From positions 1 to 9,938 of the forward strand of contig JARBTY010000106.1 in NCBI GenBank assembly GCA_029239935.1: a stretch of 9,938 nt of DNA, in the 5' to 3' direction. Each line of letters starts with the position of its first letter. The stretch's first letter is position 1. The stretch comes from Clostridia bacterium (lineage in GTDB: Bacteria; Bacillota_A; Clostridia; Lachnospirales; Cellulosilyticaceae). The notes below the pieces were generated by a model. The model searched no databases. It saw only the letters and a list, made by a program, of their open reading frames with translations, and was not told the DNA's origin. The position numbers were made by a program, and so were the translations under genes. This document shows positions 1,572 to 9,934 of the stretch, piece after piece.

Positions 1572-3791
1572 ATGATAAATCAATTAAGAAAAATGGTATT
1601 AAAAGCGATACTATTAGGGATTTTGACGTTTATACCCACGGGTCTTATGGCACAATCTGAAAATACACTAAGCAAAAATACAGTAGTGGAGGAAAAGGGT
1701 TATCGATTTACTCTAGATGAGGCATCCAGACTTAAAATTGATCTCAAGGATCCTATTAAATATAGTGGTGCACCTGTTTTCTTTTATGTGAATTTAGAAA
1801 ATGCAAAGTGGCTTGAAGCCGTTAATACAAGCAATACAATTGCTAATTTCCCGGGGGCTGTCTTTACTAAGGTCAGTGACACGAAATTAGAAGTGAAATT
1901 AACTAATTCACTGAACAGCAGTATTTACTACATACCGCTTCTGACTGAACTAACAGGGGGAGAAGCTAAAGTGAGTGTAGATGGGGGCGGAACTGAGATA
2001 AGCAGCACACCTCTTACAGTGTTTGCAGTGACCAGTGACCAAAAACCTATTGTATCTACCGGCGATGTTACAGCTGTTAGAGATGAAGGGGTTGTAGCTA
2101 ACATTAAGATTGATGAGATTATAAAGGGCGCACTGGTAAACAGCGGTAAAGCGGCAGATCGAACCATTACTCTGACACTGCTTAATCCAAATTATGAATT
2201 TGAAAATGATAAGCCAGTGATTCAGACAAGCGGTGGGTTTTACAATATGACAACAAAAGCCGTTAATGATACAGGAAGCGGTACTTATGATATCTCGCAG
2301 ATAACAACAGGTTATGGAAAACTCTCAGCCACACAAGCTGATAAAGGAATTTTACATATTTACCTGCCAGAAAAGACTAACATTACAGCACCAGGAAGAT
2401 TAAATATCACTGAACTAACGGTGAAGGCGAAGACTAAAGAACTTCAATCAGGTAAAATTGAAATAGAAGTGAGCGGCCCTAGTTTAGAAAAACGAATTGT
2501 TACAGTGGCCCAAATCAAAGACTACAGCATTTCGGTTTTAAATAAACTCAGCAGCCCAGCAGCGATTAAGATGGGAAGCAAAGGGACTATCAATTTTTCT
2601 ATTAAAGAGAATGTAGTAGAAAGTATGGTTGAAGGAAAAACAGTGCAAGTTACTTTAGATAAGGGCTATTTTGCAGCAGTTAAAAATGCGGGAACCAGCA
2701 ATCTTTCTATAGGAAGCATCAAACTTAACAAACAAGATATTACGAAACAGCTCTCTGTTTCTGCCATACAGAAAGATGGCTATTTAACGGGATTTAGCTT
2801 TGATATTCCAAGGAGTATAGATAAAGACGAGCTGAATGAAATTCAGTTTGAAAACGTAGCAGTTTATGCACCTTCAAATGCTTCGGGCAATGTAAAACTT
2901 TTGGTTAATATAGCAGGTATCAAAGAAGAAGATGCGGCGACAGTAGCTGTTATAAAAGAAGTCGCTGAAATGATTTTCGAACCTATTAGATTAAAAGTAG
3001 GTGTTAAAGATCAAAAAGGTGGCAGACTTGTTATCACAGAAACGGACAAGGATATGATACAGGCAGGGGTGATAGAGCTGGAGATAGAGGCAGAGGCAGG
3101 TATTACTTTCCCAGACAAACCTGAGGTGACAGTTATAGAAGGAGATATTAAGCTTGGAGATGTCAGATATGATGGTGTTAAGCCTAATATGTTAAAAATA
3201 GAGGTGCTTCGTACTTCACGTAATGCTTCACGGATTGAAATTAAAAACTTTATTGTGACCGCAGACGGTACTGTACCAGATGGTGGATATATGCTTACTG
3301 TAAAGGGTAGTGCGCTTACACCGGATACAGGCCTTGGCGCATTAGAGTATAAAAATTTTATGATTGTTGGTAATGCCCCTGTTGAAGTAACAGTGCCAAC
3401 ACCAGTGGAGTCAGCTACAACTCTCTCTAAGTTTGTCATTGACAGTGCAATTTATGATGTAAATGGCGAAAAAAGAACGATGGATGCAAAGGCCTATTTA
3501 GAAGGCGGAAGAACGATGGTTCCTCTCAAATATGTAGCAGATGCTGTTGGTATCACAGGTAAAGCAATTAACTTTGACAAGGGTGTTATAACTATCCAGT
3601 CAGGTAAAAAAGTAATTACATTATATGATGGACAGAATACAGCAAAGGTTAATGGCGAAGAGCTAATGATAAATGGCAAAGTGATTGTAAAAGAAGGCAG
3701 AACTTATGTCCCAGTGGCTGAAATTGCAAGGCTGCTAGATGTAAAAGTAGTATGGAATGCCAATACAAAAACAGCTGTTTTTGAAAAATAA
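1572..3791 (+). CDS. Exported modular protein with C-terminal copper-amine-oxidase N-like (stalk) domain
   Basis: This 739-residue protein begins with a signal peptide (positive MINQLRKMVLK, hydrophobic core to about 20, likely cleavage after LMA at 25-27). The body, about 40-610, is rich in beta-prone segments and looks like several divergent copies of one module. Each copy ends in a similar strand-turn-strand motif: TGGEAKVSVDG at 128, SGKIEIEVSG at 293, SGNVKLLVNIAG at 438 and DGGYMLTVKG at 570. The last 119 residues (621-739) match the copper amine oxidase N-terminal-like family. Their signatures are RTMVPLKYVADAVG, a hydrophobic core with AKVNGEELMING, then GRTYVPVAEIARLLDVKVVW and a terminal TKTAVFE. 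Despite the family name, this domain has no amine oxidase activity; in Firmicutes it is common on exported proteins and probably acts as a structural or wall-associating module. No LPXTG sorting signal or C-terminal membrane anchor is present. Start: AGGAG at 1559-1563, eight bases before the ATG. The gene is monocistronic. A surface or matrix role is inferred. Confidence 0.85.
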   Translation: MINQLRKMVLKAILLGILTFIPTGLMAQSENTLSKNTVVEEKGYRFTLDEASRLKIDLKDPIKYSGAPVFFYVNLENAKWLEAVNTSNTIANFPGAVFTKVSDTKLEVKLTNSLNSSIYYIPLLTELTGGEAKVSVDGGGTEISSTPLTVFAVTSDQKPIVSTGDVTAVRDEGVVANIKIDEIIKGALVNSGKAADRTITLTLLNPNYEFENDKPVIQTSGGFYNMTTKAVNDTGSGTYDISQITTGYGKLSATQADKGILHIYLPEKTNITAPGRLNITELTVKAKTKELQSGKIEIEVSGPSLEKRIVTVAQIKDYSISVLNKLSSPAAIKMGSKGTINFSIKENVVESMVEGKTVQVTLDKGYFAAVKNAGTSNLSIGSIKLNKQDITKQLSVSAIQKDGYLTGFSFDIPRSIDKDELNEIQFENVAVYAPSNASGNVKLLVNIAGIKEEDAATVAVIKEVAEMIFEPIRLKVGVKDQKGGRLVITETDKDMIQAGVIELEIEAEAGITFPDKPEVTVIEGDIKLGDVRYDGVKPNMLKIEVLRTSRNASRIEIKNFIVTADGTVPDGGYMLTVKGSALTPDTGLGALEYKNFMIVGNAPVEVTVPTPVESATTLSKFVIDSAIYDVNGEKRTMDAKAYLEGGRTMVPLKYVADAVGITGKAINFDKGVITIQSGKKVITLYDGQNTAKVNGEELMINGKVIVKEGRTYVPVAEIARLLDVKVVWNANTKTAVFEK

Positions 3792-3804
3792 CATAGAAAT
3801 ATTG

Positions 3805-3861
3805 GAGGTCATTTTAAAAGCTGAGATTTAAACAGCTTTTAAAATGACCTCTTGTTTATTT
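3805..3861 (+). terminator. Long perfect hairpin, probable terminator of the stalk-domain gene
   Basis: A perfect 19-bp stem (3805-3823 with 3833-3851) closes a 9-base loop, 13 bases after the stop codon. The following tract (TTGTTTATTT, 3852-3861) is T-rich but interrupted, so termination may be less efficient than at the other sites. Each arm carries a TTTTAAAA palindrome. A hairpin protecting the mRNA 3' end is an alternative role. Confidence 0.65.
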
Positions 3862-3914
3862 GCAAAATAACTATTAAAATAAACAGATAAAATGGATAAA
3901 TAAGGAGAAATAAT

Positions 3915-4673: not shown

Positions 4674-4705
4674 TAGCTTATAGCACCAAAAAAAATAGAA
4701 TAAAG

Positions 4706-4747
4706 AAATTAAAAAACAGCTTTTGTAAAAAGCTGTTTTTTAATTTT
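4706..4747 (+). terminator. Strong intrinsic terminator of tatD
   Basis: A 19-bp perfect stem (4706-4724 with 4728-4746) has a 3-base GTA loop around a CAGC/GCTG core, with A6 and T6 runs in its arms. The symmetric A/T flanks make it look bidirectional. It ends the tatD unit 33 bases after the stop codon. Confidence 0.85.
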
Positions 4748-5060
4748 GTATAGTTATACTAAACTTCTAGGATATAATTATTAAATAAAATAGAAAAAAC
4801 TTAAATAGTAAAATCTCCTAATAACTGTATTAAAATACAAAAACATGGACTGCAATTATTTTTTATGTTAAAAATTTCTAGTAATTGAATAAAAAAGAAA
4901 AAATGGACATATAATAGTTATTAATTAAATGTTACGTAATTGTTAAATGGCTTCGATTGTAAAAAAAAAAATAATCTACTCAAACCATTGATATAACGTT
5001 GAAATCCAATTTTTTTTAGAGGTTTTTTAGAAAAGAAATAAAAAAAGTATTACAAAAGGC
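4748..5060 (+). other. AT-rich intergenic stretch without a recognisable gene
   Basis: Between the tatD terminator and the candidate yabE promoter there are about 310 bases of very AT-rich sequence with homopolymer runs (A11 near 4961-4971, T8 near 5010-5017). No plausible coding frame with a ribosome binding site, no tRNA and no known riboswitch motif was recognised. A loosely repeated element of 34-37 bases ending in ATGGAC occurs at 4814-4850 and 4875-4908. A small palindrome, TTACGTAA, lies at 4932-4939. Confidence 0.5.
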
Positions 5061-5089
5061 TTGAAAGATTAGAAGAAATATATTACAAT
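5061..5089 (+). promoter_or_regulatory. Candidate promoter of the yabE-like gene
   Basis: TTGAAA (5061-5066) and TACAAT (5084-5089) are 17 bases apart, each matching consensus at five of six positions. Transcription would start near 5096 and give an untranslated leader of about 150 bases. A second, weaker pair (TTGAAA 5101-5106, TATTAC 5124-5129, 17-base spacing) lies just downstream. In such AT-rich sequence, chance matches are frequent. Confidence 0.5.
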
Positions 5090-5119
5090 TTGAAATGTAG
5101 TTGAAACAAGTTGATCTTA

Positions 5120-5148
5120 ATTTTATTACCAGACGATTGTAATAAAAT
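5120..5148 (+). repeat. Perfect 10-bp inverted repeat in the yabE leader
   Basis: ATTTTATTAC (5120-5129) and its exact reverse complement GTAATAAAAT (5139-5148) flank a 9-base spacer. No T tract follows, so it is not a standard terminator. It may be a regulator binding site or an RNA stem in the 5' leader about 25 bases after the proposed transcription start. Confidence 0.6.
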
Positions 5149-5173
5149 ACGGCTTATCAGATCGAAAAAAGAA

Positions 5174-5228
5174 AATCAAATTATTTTGATTAGTAAAGAT
5201 AGAACTAAACTTTTGATTAAAAGAGTTT
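5174..5228 (+). repeat. Two further small inverted repeats before the yabE ribosome binding site
   Basis: AATCAAA (5174-5180) pairs with TTTGATT (5185-5191) across a 4-base loop. AAACTTTT (5207-5214) pairs with AAAA (5219-5222) plus GTTT (5225-5228), with a two-base bulge. They are short and AT-only apart from a few G/C pairs, so chance is possible. They follow the 5120-5148 repeat in series and end eight bases before the ribosome binding site. Confidence 0.35.
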
Positions 5229-5247
5229 ATGTTTTAAGGAGGTAATC

Positions 5248-6367: not shown

Positions 6368-7249
6368 ATGGAGAAGATCGCATCACCTCAGGGAACAAAA
6401 GACTTACTTAATAAATACCCGTTTGTATTTCAAAAAAAGTTTGGGCAGAACTTTCTTATAGACACACATGTTCTAGGTAAAATTATAGACGCAGCTGAGA
6501 TTACAAAAGAAGACTGCGTACTTGAGATAGGGCCAGGGATAGGCAGCGTCACAGAGGAGCTTATAGAGCATGCAGGCAAAGTGATTGCAGTGGAGATAGA
6601 CAAGCAGCTGATTCCTATTTTAGAGGAGCAGTTTGGACAAAAAGAGAACTTTAGGCTGATTCATCAAGATATACTAAAAGTAGATCTTAAAAAGCTGATA
6701 GAGGAAGAATCTCCCAACAAGAGAATCAAGGTGGTTGCAAATCTACCTTATTATATTACAACACCTATTATCATGCATCTGCTGGAAAACGAACTGCCTA
6801 TAGAAAGCATTACCATCATGGTACAAAAAGAGGTAGCTGACAGACTTTCGTCGCCGCCAGGCAACAAACAATACGGTGCTATTACTGTAGCAGTTAATTA
6901 TTATGCAAAACCCTATTTGGTTGCGAATGTACCACGCAATTGTTTTATGCCAAGACCAAATGTAGACTCAGCCGTACTAAGACTTACTCTAAATGAGACT
7001 TCTGGGGTAGAGGTTAATAACAGAGCACAGCTTTTTAAAATTATTAAAGCTTCTTTTTTGCAAAGAAGAAAAACGCTGCTTAATGCACTGGCTGCTAATG
7101 CTGACCTAGGGCTCCCAAAAGAGGAGTTAAAGACACTATTAGAAGACAGTCATGTCGGTGCATCTACAAGAGGAGAGACCCTGTCTTTGCAGGAATTTGC
7201 AAGGTTATCTGATTATATAGATGCTTTCAGGACACAAAAAAAGAGTTGA
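6368..7249 (+). CDS. rsmA: 16S rRNA (adenine1518-N6/adenine1519-N6)-dimethyltransferase RsmA (KsgA)
   Basis: RsmA dimethylates two adjacent adenines in the 3'-terminal hairpin of 16S rRNA with S-adenosylmethionine during late 30S assembly; its loss gives kasugamycin resistance. The 293-residue protein has the expected length. Visible motifs are QKKFGQNFL (22-30) at the N-terminus, the SAM-binding loop EIGPGIG (53-59), the acidic residue after strand 2 in VEID (75-78), HQDI (99-102), the catalytic NLPYYI (125-130) and FMPRPNVDS (193-201), followed by the C-terminal helical domain with FLQRRKTL. The ATG at 6368 is preferred to the GTG at 6359 because the ribosome binding site lies at 6354-6359. 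The stop TGA (7247-7249) lies inside the -35 hexamer of the next promoter. No terminator separates it from the downstream leader, so some read-through into the aromatic operon leader is possible. Confidence 0.97.
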   Translation: MEKIASPQGTKDLLNKYPFVFQKKFGQNFLIDTHVLGKIIDAAEITKEDCVLEIGPGIGSVTEELIEHAGKVIAVEIDKQLIPILEEQFGQKENFRLIHQDILKVDLKKLIEEESPNKRIKVVANLPYYITTPIIMHLLENELPIESITIMVQKEVADRLSSPPGNKQYGAITVAVNYYAKPYLVANVPRNCFMPRPNVDSAVLRLTLNETSGVEVNNRAQLFKIIKASFLQRRKTLLNALAANADLGLPKEELKTLLEDSHVGASTRGETLSLQEFARLSDYIDAFRTQKKS

Positions 7250-7274
7250 CAATGAGAATTATACCACTTATAAT
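7246..7274 (+). promoter_or_regulatory. Perfect consensus promoter of the aromatic operon, overlapping the rsmA stop
   Basis: TTGACA (7246-7251) and TATAAT (7269-7274) are spaced by exactly 17 bases. The rsmA stop codon TGA is part of the -35 hexamer. Transcription would begin near 7281, about 36 bases before the leader ORF and 295 before aroF. A fully consensus promoter followed by a terminator ahead of the first enzyme gene fits control by premature termination rather than by initiation. Confidence 0.85.
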
Positions 7275-7316
7275 GAACCTAATTTCAAAAATACAATAAA
7301 TGATGAGGATATAAAA

Positions 7317-7460
7317 ATGAATCGTATATGTGAACTTACAGCAAAATTTTATACATTCTTTTTTAGCTGGGGCTACTTTTATTTTAGCGCTGGTTATTTT
7401 TGCTGTAAACAAAATATGAGAAGGCCTTTTGGCATATACGTCCCCATTCATATATCTTAA
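7317..7460 (+). CDS. Putative aromatic leader peptide (Phe/Tyr/Trp-rich) of the aroF-pheA operon
   Basis: This is a 47-codon ORF with ATG at 7317 and TAA at 7458-7460, preceded by GAGGA (7305-7309) at 7-base spacing. Residues 11-28 read FYTFFFSWGYFYFSAGYF: seven Phe, four Tyr and one Trp in 18 codons (7347-7400), with F38 and Y41 later. The first enzyme gene downstream makes DAHP for all three aromatic amino acids, and the second makes phenylpyruvate. An intrinsic terminator begins 23 bases after the leader stop codon. This is the arrangement of a translated attenuator, as in the E. coli pheA and trp leaders: low charged tRNA-Phe/Tyr/Trp stalls the ribosome and favours read-through. The same frame is open up to an ATG at 7221 inside rsmA, but that lies before the promoter. 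Caveats: the stretch is T-rich, which raises Phe content in any frame; the peptide is long for a leader; and an overlapping frame (7330-7419) encodes a hydrophobic peptide. Confidence 0.7.
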   Translation: MNRICELTAKFYTFFFSWGYFYFSAGYFCCKQNMRRPFGIYVPIHIS

Positions 7461-7486
7461 GTTTTTTAAGATTAAAAGATATAAGG
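7442..7486 (+). promoter_or_regulatory. Candidate antiterminator segment of the attenuator
   Basis: TATATCTT (7451-7458) is the exact reverse complement of AAGATATA (7476-7483). The stem can be prolonged by C7449-G7485 and T7448-G7486 past one mismatch, invading the base of the terminator's 5' arm (7483-7486). A competing upstream pairing is TGGGG (7368-7372, within the aromatic codons) with CCCCA (7442-7446). A ribosome stalled on the aromatic codons would block the latter and leave 7448-7458 free; a ribosome reaching the stop at 7458-7460 would cover it. A rival small hairpin is ATCTTAA (7454-7460) with TTAAGAT (7466-7472). Pairings were found by eye, without energy calculation. Confidence 0.35.
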
Positions 7487-7518
7487 CTTTATGCTCAAAA
7501 GGGCATAAAGCCTTTTTT
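7483..7518 (+). terminator. Intrinsic terminator before aroF (attenuator terminator)
   Basis: AAGGCTTTATGC (7483-7494) pairs perfectly over 12 bp with 7503-7514 around an 8-base loop, followed by TTTTTT (7513-7518). It lies upstream of aroF (ATG 7576), inside the transcript from the 7246-7274 promoter, so full transcription of the operon requires read-through. A transcript ending here would be about 238 bases long. No further promoter of comparable quality was seen between 7519 and 7575. Confidence 0.9.
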
Positions 7519-7575
7519 ATTTATAGATGTTTCAAAAATACAACACTACGCTACATATTATAAGGAGGTATAAGC

Positions 7576-8604
7576 ATGATTATCGTTATGAATCACACAG
7601 CTACAGAAGAAGAGATTTTAAAGCTTATGGAGGAATTAATGAGCAGTTACCCTGTTCAAATACAAAAAATAACAGGACAGGAACGTACTGTACTGGGTTT
7701 TGTGGGAGATACATCAGGCATCGATACGACACAAATAGAAAATGACAGCAGAGTGTATAGAGCTATGAGAGTAAGAGAACCCTTTAAAAAGGCTAACAGA
7801 TTATTTCACCCTGATAACAGCATTATTGAGGTAGGCGGGAGAAAAATAGGAGGAGGCGACATTGCAGTTATAGCAGGTCCTTGCTCCGTAGAAAGTGAAG
7901 AGCAGATTGTATCGGTTGCTGAAGACGTAAAAAGATCAGGAGCGACCTTTTTGAGAGGTGGTGCTTATAAACCCCGTACTTCCCCCTATGCTTTCCAAGG
8001 TCTTGAAGAGGATGGACTTGAACTGCTTAAGATAGCCAGAGAAAAAACAGGACTTCCTATTGTAACAGAAATCATGTACCCACAGACAATTGATAAATTT
8101 GTTGAGGATGTAGATATTATCCAAATAGGAGCAAGAAATATGCAAAACTTTGCGCTTCTTAAAGAATTAGGCAGAACAAGGAAACCTATACTGCTTAAGA
8201 GAGGTTTATCTTCTACTATAGAAGAATGGATTATGGCAGCGGAATACATTATGGCAGGAGGAAATGATCAGGTTATCCTTTGTGAAAGAGGAATTAGAAC
8301 ATTCGAAAGCTATACCCGTAACACCCTAGATTTATCAGCCATTCCGGCTATTAAAAAACTCAGTCATCTTCCGATCATCATAGATCCAAGTCATGCATCG
8401 GGACTAGCGTACATGGTAGAGCCTATGTGTATGGCGGCCATAGCTGCAGGAGCAGACGGGGTTATTATAGAAGTTCATAATAACCCAGCTAAAGCTTTGT
8501 GTGACGGTCCACAATCTCTGACACCAGCAGAGTTTGATAAAGTGATAGGAAAGATGAGAAAATATGCAGCAGTAGAAGACCGTCAAATCAGTGAGGTGAA
8601 ATAA
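7576..8604 (+). CDS. aroF: 3-deoxy-7-phosphoheptulonate (DAHP) synthase, type I-beta with N-terminal regulatory domain
   Basis: The enzyme condenses phosphoenolpyruvate and erythrose 4-phosphate to DAHP, the first step of the shikimate pathway, in the cytoplasm. The 342 residues match the Thermotoga-type class: an N-terminal ferredoxin-like domain (about 1-70), which in Thermotoga mediates Tyr/Phe feedback inhibition, then the TIM-barrel catalytic domain. Visible motifs are GPCSVES (101-107), LRGGAYKPRTSPYAFQG (126-142), QIGARNMQN (183-191), LLKRG (206-210), CERGIRTFE (236-244), DPSHASG (270-276) and EVHNNPAKALCDGPQSL (299-315). The metal ligands are C103, H273, E299 and D310, each one residue on from the Thermotoga positions. 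Start: the textbook site TAAGGAGGT (7561-7569) six bases before the ATG. It is the first structural gene after the aromatic leader and terminator, and its TAA overlaps the pheA ATG by one base. No chorismate mutase domain is fused to it. Confidence 0.97.
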   Translation: MIIVMNHTATEEEILKLMEELMSSYPVQIQKITGQERTVLGFVGDTSGIDTTQIENDSRVYRAMRVREPFKKANRLFHPDNSIIEVGGRKIGGGDIAVIAGPCSVESEEQIVSVAEDVKRSGATFLRGGAYKPRTSPYAFQGLEEDGLELLKIAREKTGLPIVTEIMYPQTIDKFVEDVDIIQIGARNMQNFALLKELGRTRKPILLKRGLSSTIEEWIMAAEYIMAGGNDQVILCERGIRTFESYTRNTLDLSAIPAIKKLSHLPIIIDPSHASGLAYMVEPMCMAAIAAGADGVIIEVHNNPAKALCDGPQSLTPAEFDKVIGKMRKYAAVEDRQISEVK

Positions 8605-9548
8605 TGGGAGAAGAAGGACCTTATTATAACATCGGCGAAAACCTCAAGATATCTATAGAAAATTTGTATCAACACAACAAACATGTATTAAAAGCAATAG
8701 AAGACGGTATGAACGATGTACCTAAAGCAAATCCTATAGTGGGCTATCAAGGGGTATCGGGTTCCTTTGGACAAGAAGCGGCAATGACTTATTTTAAAGA
8801 GGGTTATGGGAGCCTTGCAGCCCACGAGGAGTTTGAAGATGTGTTTGAGGCTTTAGAAAAAGGGACGATAGACTATGGGGTTGTCCCTATAGAAAATTCC
8901 AGTGCAGGTGATGTGCTGGAAATCTATGATTTAATGTTAAAGCATAATGCATATATAATTGGCGAAGAGATTATAAAGGTGGAGCATAACCTATTGGGGA
9001 TAAAAGGCGCTAAAATAGAGGAGTTAACAGAAGTTTATTCTCATCCTCAGGCCTTGTCACAATGTAAAGGATTTCTAAGAGCCCATAGGTATATTGAAGA
9101 AAAACCTTATTTAAATACAGCGATGGCCAGTCAATTTGTTGCAGAGACTAAAGATAAGACAAAAGCTTCTATAGGAAGTAAAAGGGCAGCGGATGCTTAT
9201 AACTTAGAAATTCTCAAAAGCAATATTCATTTTAATGATACAAACTGCACCAGATTTATTGTGTTAGCTAAAAATATGGCTATTAGTAAAAAATGTGATA
9301 AAATAAGTGTAGTATTTACAACTTCTCATACAAGCGGTGCGCTTTATAATATATTAGGACATTTTGCATACAATGGACTCAACCTGCTAAAGATACAATC
9401 TAGGCCCCTTCAAGAAAAAACATGGCATTATTTTTTCTTTGCTGACCTAGAAGGCAATCTGCAGGATGCCAATGTCCTTATAGCACTTGGCAAACTTGAA
9501 GAACAGAGTAAATATTTAAAAATACTAGGCAATTATAAACAGGCTTAA
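8604..9548 (+). CDS. pheA: Prephenate dehydratase with C-terminal ACT domain
   Basis: This enzyme decarboxylates and dehydrates prephenate to phenylpyruvate, the step committed to phenylalanine. The catalytic domain spans about 45-225: VGYQGVSGSFGQEAA (46-60), VPIENSSAGDV (94-104), HPQALSQC (147-154), then NDTNCTRF (211-218), whose TRF carries the family's key threonine (T216). The ACT domain (about 233-310) has the GAL motif (245-247) and IQSRP (264-268) in place of the usual IESRP, the Phe-binding site for feedback inhibition. The first 44 residues (GENLKISIENLYQHNKHVLKAI and neighbours) are not a complete chorismate mutase domain, although many clostridial PheA proteins carry one of about 90 residues; they may be a remnant or linker. 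The ATG at 8604 overlaps the aroF TAA (TAATG), with GAGGTG at 8593-8598 five bases ahead, implying translational coupling. A later ATG at 8709 lacks a good ribosome binding site. Confidence 0.95.
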   Translation: MGEEGPYYNIGENLKISIENLYQHNKHVLKAIEDGMNDVPKANPIVGYQGVSGSFGQEAAMTYFKEGYGSLAAHEEFEDVFEALEKGTIDYGVVPIENSSAGDVLEIYDLMLKHNAYIIGEEIIKVEHNLLGIKGAKIEELTEVYSHPQALSQCKGFLRAHRYIEEKPYLNTAMASQFVAETKDKTKASIGSKRAADAYNLEILKSNIHFNDTNCTRFIVLAKNMAISKKCDKISVVFTTSHTSGALYNILGHFAYNGLNLLKIQSRPLQEKTWHYFFFADLEGNLQDANVLIALGKLEEQSKYLKILGNYKQA

Positions 9549-9562
9549 TCAAGGAGGAAAAA

Positions 9563-9934
9563 ATGAAAAAAAGTATATTTACAGACAAAGCCCCTAAGGC
9601 AATAGGGCCTTATTCACAAGCAGTGACTGCAAATGGTATGATCTATACCTCAGGTCAATTAGGAATGGACTATGAGGGAGTATTAGAAGAAACAGTAGAA
9701 GGACAAGCACACAAGGCAATTCAGAATTTGATAGCCATACTGGAGGAAGCAGAAACCAGTATAGAAAATGTCGTAAAAACCACAGTTTTTTTAGCAGATA
9801 TCAATGATTTTATAAAAGTAAACGAAATTTATGGTCAATACTTTAAAGAACCTTATCCAGCAAGAAGTGCTTTTGAAGTAGCCAATCTTCCTAAAGGTGC
9901 AAAGGTTGAAATAGAAGCAATCGCAACATTGTAG
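9563..9934 (+). CDS. ridA: RidA-family reactive enamine/imine deaminase
   Basis: RidA (YjgF/YER057c/UK114 family) hydrolyses reactive 2-aminoacrylate-type enamines and imines released by pyridoxal-phosphate enzymes, protecting other PLP enzymes from damage; it acts as a cytoplasmic homotrimer. The 123 residues are of standard length. Visible motifs are KAIGPYSQAV (12-21, with Y17), IYTSGQLGMD (27-36), the central TTVFLADINDF (73-83) and PYPARSAFEVANLPKGAKVEIEAIA. R101 is the conserved substrate-carboxylate-binding arginine and E118 the conserved acidic residue near the C-terminus, which marks the active RidA subgroup. Start: AAGGAGG at 9551-9557, five bases before the ATG. It follows pheA by 14 bases with no terminator between, so it belongs to the aroF-pheA operon. 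A role in protecting aromatic aminotransferases is an inference from position. The window ends four bases after the stop, so the operon may continue. Confidence 0.95.
   Translation: MKKSIFTDKAPKAIGPYSQAVTANGMIYTSGQLGMDYEGVLEETVEGQAHKAIQNLIAILEEAETSIENVVKTTVFLADINDFIKVNEIYGQYFKEPYPARSAFEVANLPKGAKVEIEAIATL

Follow-up and report, generated by a model that had tools for sequence, protein, structure and literature searches.

The leader locus

The window analysed here, a stretch of 9,938 nucleotides from a member of the Cellulosilyticaceae (contig JARBTY010000106.1), carries in this order rsmA, a promoter-like site, a ribosome binding site (RBS), an open reading frame (ORF) of 47 codons, an intrinsic terminator and aroF-pheA-ridA. 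Pfam identifies RrnaAD (rsmA) upstream of the leader and a ferredoxin-like domain in the DAHP synthase downstream.

7246..7274, + strand: putative sigma-70-type promoter, TTGACA-17-TATAAT, with 12 of 12 consensus positions
7305..7309, + strand: RBS of the leader ORF, GAGGA, 7 nt before the ATG at 7317
7306..7334, + strand: segment 1 (RBS and first leader codons), predicted to pair with 7429-7458 in the ribosome-free minimum free energy fold
7317..7460, + strand: leader ORF of 47 codons, MNRICELTAKFYTFFFSWGYFYFSAGYFCCKQNMRRPFGIYVPIHIS
7336..7408, + strand: helix P1 (7336-7346 with 7398-7408), enclosing P2 in the ribosome-free fold
7347..7400, + strand: sensing zone of 18 codons, of which 12 are aromatic (7 Phe, 4 Tyr, 1 Trp)
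7364..7396, + strand: hairpin P2 inside the sensing codons (fold and covariation)
7417..7442, + strand: segment 2, the last part of the leader ORF, candidate strand of the antiterminator
7448..7480, + strand: spacer hairpin between leader end and terminator, in two alternative registers
7483..7518, + strand: intrinsic terminator (segments 3 and 4) with U-tract, -20.5 kcal/mol
7562..7568, + strand: RBS of aroF, AAGGAGG
7576..8604, + strand: DAHP synthase gene (aroF), first gene of the presumed operon (Pfam)
8604..9548, + strand: prephenate dehydratase gene (pheA; Pfam)
9563..9934, + strand: gene of a RidA-family protein, Ribonuc_L-PSP (Pfam)

A sequence-only reading of this DNA had proposed a translated leader-peptide attenuator, and the perfect promoter, the GAGGA site with its 47-codon ORF (stop codon at 7458) and the 12 aromatic codons in 18 that it had described were all found again at these coordinates. 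The sensing zone reads FYTFFFSWGYFYFSAGYF; a count of 12 aromatic codons was reached in none of 2000 dinucleotide shuffles of 7247-7575, the maximum among the shuffles being 10. The terminator is likewise present, albeit not as the 12-bp stem with a T6 tail that had been claimed: the hairpin (7483-7514) has 14 pairs, G-U pairs included, a loop of 4 and a T-rich tail, and the T6 run overlaps the end of the stem.

The predicted fold of the leader RNA (7281-7518) has a free energy of -63.2 kcal/mol (z -5.2), which none of 200 shuffled sequences matched. An Rfam scan of the window up to E=1 gave no credible match, three matches elsewhere being far below gathering scores. The stretch 3790-3869, after the gene for a 739-aa protein, has weak minus-strand matches to two unrelated Rfam families and is perhaps an ordinary terminator. 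Downstream features also include a long interval (4674-5247), flanked by tatD and a gene for a protein with G5/3D domains, in which no gene is convincing.

A family of leaders before aromatic-pathway genes

A protein search with the leader peptide of the window found six relatives. One of these (P0001), in Cellulosilyticum sp. I15G10I2 (Clostridia, Lachnospirales, Cellulosilyticaceae), is annotated merely as a hypothetical protein, which illustrates how easily such leaders are missed. The core of the peptide is identical in the nine leaders first aligned, and a profile of nine leaders matched 29 of the 392 order-sample genomes (E <= 0.01); four of 30 order-sample matches (L110, L112, L113 and L114) were weak HMM matches without a convincing leader and were dropped. 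From 26 leaders we built a covariance model of the leader core, named R1, in which the downstream genes played no part.

At E <= 0.01, R1 matches 14 of 24 genomes of the host family, a sample that, like that of the order, overlaps the sources of the model, and 42 of 391 sampled genomes of the host class. The Negativicutes class sample yielded matches in 36 of 150 genomes at E <= 0.01 and in 42 of 150 at E <= 0.05; L146-L174 and L218-L237 are not among the sources of R1. In searches of more than 40 genomes, filters were stricter and weak matches were lost. The leaders that were read number 75: that of the window, 25 order-sample loci, 29 class-sample matches and 20 matches from the Negativicutes sample. 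The window represents L085 (genome G001), which is near-identical to it (same leader peptide, aroF 99.7% identical), and L145, a repeat of L089, was counted once; left out of the 75 are 12 of the 42 class-sample matches and the Negativicutes-sample matches that were given no locus, bar some fetched later.

Each of the 75 leaders has a terminator-like hairpin and an aromatic-rich ORF of 32-58 codons that runs uninterrupted across the core. Where these ORFs start is predicted, the start codons (ATG in 70 leaders, GTG in three, TTG in two) having been picked by script. A promoter-like site (at least 10 of 12 positions) lies 5' of 69 leaders, as compared to 6 of 75 base-shuffled regions, and the hairpin is at -10 kcal/mol or below in 63 leaders and in two of 75 shuffles; an RBS-like motif precedes 64 of the 75 (a raw count, with no shuffled comparison). 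The sequence-only reading had suggested a check for conservation among relatives, and aromatic codons, RBS-like motif and terminator-like hairpin do recur over the 75 leaders. Of the 253 zone codons in 26 leaders, 220 specify Phe, Tyr or Trp. Among the 49 leaders detected with R1, the leader's own aromatic score was reached by one of 1960 shuffles. Over all 75 zones there are 438 Phe, 282 Tyr and 63 Trp, with Trp absent from 10 leaders and Tyr from none. Comparison of leader peptides (one, then ten, then three) with NCBIfam and Pfam gave no family among the leaders tested; two NCBIfam matches, at E 0.1-0.15, were taken as chance.

The first gene after the leader belongs to the aromatic pathway in 74 cases, and the remaining leader (L087) meets the contig end. 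It is matched as DAHP synthase (aroF) in 65 instances, prephenate dehydratase (pheA) in five, shikimate kinase (aroK) in two (L230 and L236), prephenate dehydrogenase (tyrA) at L150 and dehydroquinate synthase (aroB) at L173. This bears on the idea that the ORF serves only for translational coupling or reinitiation, the terminator being constitutive and partial. Short leader genes have been proposed to raise expression via reinitiation (PMC4833913). Of the 74 loci with a gene match, however, 73 have a terminator-like hairpin that is complete before that match begins (at L164, the exception, the predicted terminator runs into the beginning of the match to pheA), and in all 74 the codons suit the pathway; we regard the idea as highly improbable.

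Ten further matches occur in six genomes. Four precede DAHP synthase genes (L242, identified with Pfam; L238, L243 and L245, judged by similar N-terminal sequence), two precede EPSP synthase (L240, L241) and one shikimate kinase (L247), while L239 and L246 end at a contig end; L244, a poor leader with a CoA-transferase gene downstream, was taken as a false match. R1 thus gives a defined, searchable family of RNA plus ORF before six different pathway genes, and leaders of this design, each containing the conserved RNA hairpin, recur before aromatic-pathway genes in many related anaerobes.

At L093, L094, L095 and L098, the leader stands directly before pheA without aroF between, and the rsmA-leader synteny is kept; therefore, the first gene of the operon changes under the same leader. 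At L230 and L236, the leader and its shikimate kinase gene are grouped with aroD and with a chorismate synthase gene in convergent orientation; both genomes (G941 and G931) harbour another leader, followed by DAHP synthase, which faces the first from a distance of about 3.4 kb.

Hairpin P2 inside the sensing codons

P2 consists of 11 pairs (7364-7370 with 7390-7396, and 7372-7375 with 7385-7388) around one G.G mismatch (7371/7389). In the 26 leaders, the SWG and SAG codons that stand between the aromatic codons are fixed at the nucleotide level, and their bases form P2. The Ser17 codon is AGC in 22 of the 26, and otherwise AAC, TAC, TTC or GCC, the third-position C being kept throughout; AGC accounts for 15% of the Ser codons in the genes of the window. 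Gly19 is specified by GGC in 24 leaders, and Ser24 by AGC or AGT in all 26.

In alignment A3, 89% of the P2 cells are paired, as compared to 18-49% when the structure is slid by 1-3 columns; the corresponding values for alignment A4 (57 rows fitted to the model, with one spurious row, the second L173 match, left in) are 87% and 21-45%. The covariation score in A4 is 0.18, against 0.02-0.10 for the slid versions. Changes on both sides were found in 6 of the 11 P2 pairs, in 11 cells where the shuffled mean is 3.9, a count that is no better than those at slides -1, +1 and +2 (13, 14 and 12 cells). In every one of the 57 rows fitted to the model, the P2 loop has a length of either 9 or 6 nt and therefore changes by whole codons; this nucleotide count is the evidence used, the distance between SWG and SAG (5 to 7 codons across the 26 leaders) being whole in codons by construction. 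At the mismatch column, 60 of the 75 leaders have G.G, seven A/U, one A.A and seven another combination, where the fixed register of the script is possibly off in a few leaders.

Could the hairpin itself be the sensor, as a riboswitch or a protein-binding structure, with the aromatic ORF as a by-product of U-rich RNA? The near-invariance and covariation of P2 would fit, as would Ser and Gly codons fixed far beyond codon usage. Against it, however, aromatic codons fill more of the zone than mere U-richness would give, the loop is of 9 or 6 nt only, a promoter-like site, a start codon and an RBS-like motif recur with an ORF that is open through the core in every leader, and no Rfam family was found at gathering score in the homologous loci searched, just as none was credible in the window up to E=1. 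We therefore consider a structured-RNA sensor improbable.

A nascent-peptide arrest like that of TnaC, in which the peptide FFSWGYFYFSAG, lying in the exit tunnel, would detect some free aromatic metabolite, would agree with the identical peptide core of the nine leaders first aligned. The conserved non-aromatic residues change, however, with the paired base kept (S17 to N, Y, F or A; W18 to L or Q), and the spacing of SWG and SAG varies (5 to 7 codons). The constraint thus acts on the RNA rather than on the peptide, and there is little chance that peptide arrest is the mechanism. The comparisons indicate instead that two layers of selection act on the leader, one on the aromatic codons and one on the RNA structure of P2.

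The Trp codon lies in a strand of P2, and in L106 and L108, where UGG is replaced by CUG or CAG, the pairing is largely kept. For this reason, and because Phe and Tyr dominate the zones while 10 of 75 lack Trp, we read the leader mainly as a Phe/Tyr sensor. The earlier claim that it senses all three amino acids is thus doubtful as far as Trp is concerned.

A more far-reaching reading, to which we would give only a small chance, makes the family a two-input switch: an undescribed class of attenuator common to Clostridia and Negativicutes, governing a shikimate-pathway regulon (aroF, aroA, aroB, aroK, tyrA, pheA), in which the near-invariant, mostly G.G-mismatched P2 would be functional in itself, as a programmed RNA polymerase pause or a factor-binding site, beyond being opened by stalling.

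Attenuation model and known systems

The element in the window is very probably a ribosome-mediated transcription attenuator that senses a shortage of charged Phe- and Tyr-tRNA, and less certainly of Trp-tRNA. It is the comparison with 74 homologous leaders that makes us read it as a leader-peptide attenuator, by which the core of the sequence-only proposal is retained and its details, the antiterminator and the sensing of Trp, are revised. This comparison shows a conserved ORF with aromatic codons, the covarying P2, the long pairing between leader start and leader end (1:2), the terminator-like hairpin and the pathway genes downstream. The course of events given next is inferred, from use of the promoter and translation of the ORF, through stalling and the particular helix of the antiterminator, to the direction of regulation.

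The expected start of transcription is close to 7281. A shortage of aromatic aminoacyl-tRNA would make the leading ribosome stall on the codons 7347-7400 and open P2 and P1. Segment 2 (7417-7442) would then be available for pairing with the terminator's 5' arm (7483-7498), and RNA polymerase would read into aroF-pheA-ridA. With a good supply, the ribosome would reach the stop codon at 7458, covering or passing segment 2, or, alternatively, segment 2 would pair back with the leader start, and in both cases the terminator would form.

Judged by sequence, no pairing signal is stronger than the 1:2 complementarity, which joins the first part of the leader ORF to its last part. In the predicted ribosome-free fold of the window, 7306-7334 pairs with 7429-7458 and 7336-7346 with 7398-7408, together enclosing P2. 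The 1:2 pairing has p<0.05 against shuffles in 42 of 55 leaders, and its median rank among swapped partners is 0.027 (<0.05 in 44 of 75); as these sequences are related, and the statistics here and below ignore kinship, p-values are overstated.

The antiterminator is the weakest step of the model. The likelier candidate is a pairing of the 5' arm of the terminator with the last part of the leader ORF (7417-7442), which recurs in the family, with mixed statistics. The options in the window are 7417-7428 with 7483-7497 (-12.0 kcal/mol) and 7429-7442 with 7485-7498. In many other loci, (U)AAUGAGU at the leader end could pair with CUCAUU(A) in the terminator arm, the counterpart at L147 being UGAUGAG/CUCAUCA. 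Measured from the SAG codons, the best segment-2 helix starts after a median of 45 nt, and its end lies a median of 8 nt before the stop codon; there it would stay free behind a stall but be covered by a ribosome that terminates. The stronger helix of the window ends 28 nt before the stop codon, at the limit of what a terminating ribosome can cover or outside it, which is less favourable. The energy of the best 2:3 duplex gave no signal against shuffles (<0.05 in one of 55; Stouffer p 0.24), and the swap test a modest one (median rank 0.35; <0.05 in 8 of 75). A kinetic advantage must be assumed for the antiterminator (-12.0), because the terminator (-20.5) is more stable. The helix that the sequence-only reading had put forward instead, 7448-7458 with 7476-7486, is weak (best duplex -7.1 kcal/mol) and overlaps the terminator by only ~4 nt; we have set it aside. 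The segment looks like a spacer hairpin enclosed by the pairing of segment 2 with the terminator arm.

When the RNA behind the ribosome is excluded from pairing, as is usually assumed, the modelled sequestration of the terminator arm in the window is 0.74 with a stalled ribosome and 0.08 with a ribosome at the stop codon. The same order was obtained in 72 of 75 leaders, partly as a result of the set-up, because less RNA is free in the stop state. The excess of stalled-state sequestration over that with shuffled upstream RNA is positive in 69 of 75 leaders (individually <0.05 in 10), and for the window alone the p-value is 0.16. If pairing across the ribosome is allowed, the order is reversed in the window (0.26 stalled, 0.77 at the stop codon) and also in L086-L092. 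Folding with the ribosome masked, which the sequence-only reading had suggested, thus agrees with the model under the first assumption and disagrees under the second.

In E. coli and other enteric bacteria, the pheL and trpL leaders combine a leader peptide with aromatic codons, alternative 1:2, 2:3 and 3:4 pairings, and a terminator. The likeness of the present family to them is one of architecture; unlike pheL and trpL, it has ORFs of 32-58 codons with mixed Phe, Tyr and (Trp) codons and a conserved P2 inside the sensing codons. Leader-peptide attenuation being classic, the present family would be a variant marked by this hairpin. We found no description of it in the open-access literature searched or in Rfam 15. 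Seliverstov, Lyubetsky, Vitreschak and colleagues reportedly carried out comparative-genomic surveys of attenuators, one on Actinobacteria, and a forecast of the present attenuator for some Clostridia may exist in such surveys.

T-boxes (RF00230) bind tRNA directly, and uncharged tRNA raises read-through. They are abundant in the host group, with 10-24 matches per genome in 10 of 10 leader-carrying relatives, and a T-box stands directly before DAHP synthase in four of 18 loci (L012, L014, L015 and L016) as well as in L191 (same genome as L012) and L196, of 20 sources. This could lead one to expect a T-box or another known riboswitch in the present leaders too, which share the target gene; but the window shows no T-box even when matches up to E=1 are admitted, in agreement with the sequence-only reading, 20 homologous leader loci have none at gathering score, and we give this explanation practically no credence. 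Because T-boxes precede DAHP synthase in other lineages, two sensors of tRNA charging would alternate before the same gene, and the swap between the two is directly testable. The leaders indicate that a T-box-rich bacterial group controls entry into the aromatic pathway via a ribosome reading codons.

The sequence-only reading had called aromatic-codon leader peptides classic in enteric bacteria, and T-boxes or TRAP the usual control of aromatic operons in Firmicutes. Leader peptides of Firmicutes are, however, already published: attenuation by His leader peptides in bacilli and other Firmicutes is described as replacing T-boxes (PMC2965389, PMC9413887). Those leaders have histidine codons and precede hisS or his genes, whereas the present ones have aromatic codons and precede aromatic genes.

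The closest published system among the sources consulted is the uORFC-13-1 motif, whose 24 representatives, published as confined to Acholeplasma and to environmental DNA from unknown organisms, all concern aroF (PMC8632094); we compared the family with it indirectly, through its description and R1 searches of Acholeplasmatales samples. As there described, uORFC-13-1 resembles the present family in its uORF, possible promoter, RBS, apparent intrinsic terminator and aroF; its uORF has a U-run coding for at least one Phe, and there is a further base-paired substructure, too (PMC8632094). For an Acholeplasmatales genome, 30 DAHP synthase loci sampled from its order gave no match to R1 at E up to 1 (best E 4.5), and R1 matched none of 247 genomes of its class at E <= 0.05, a search made without a positive control. 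Some of the 30 loci have short aromatic ORFs (such as L212 and L214).

Five other DAHP synthase loci in Firmicutes (L005, L007, L010, L011 and L048), none with a match to R1, have short aromatic-rich upstream ORFs without P2, that of L011 being MKTIHASRFYFGFTRFFFAAGICHA; these are perhaps further types of leader.
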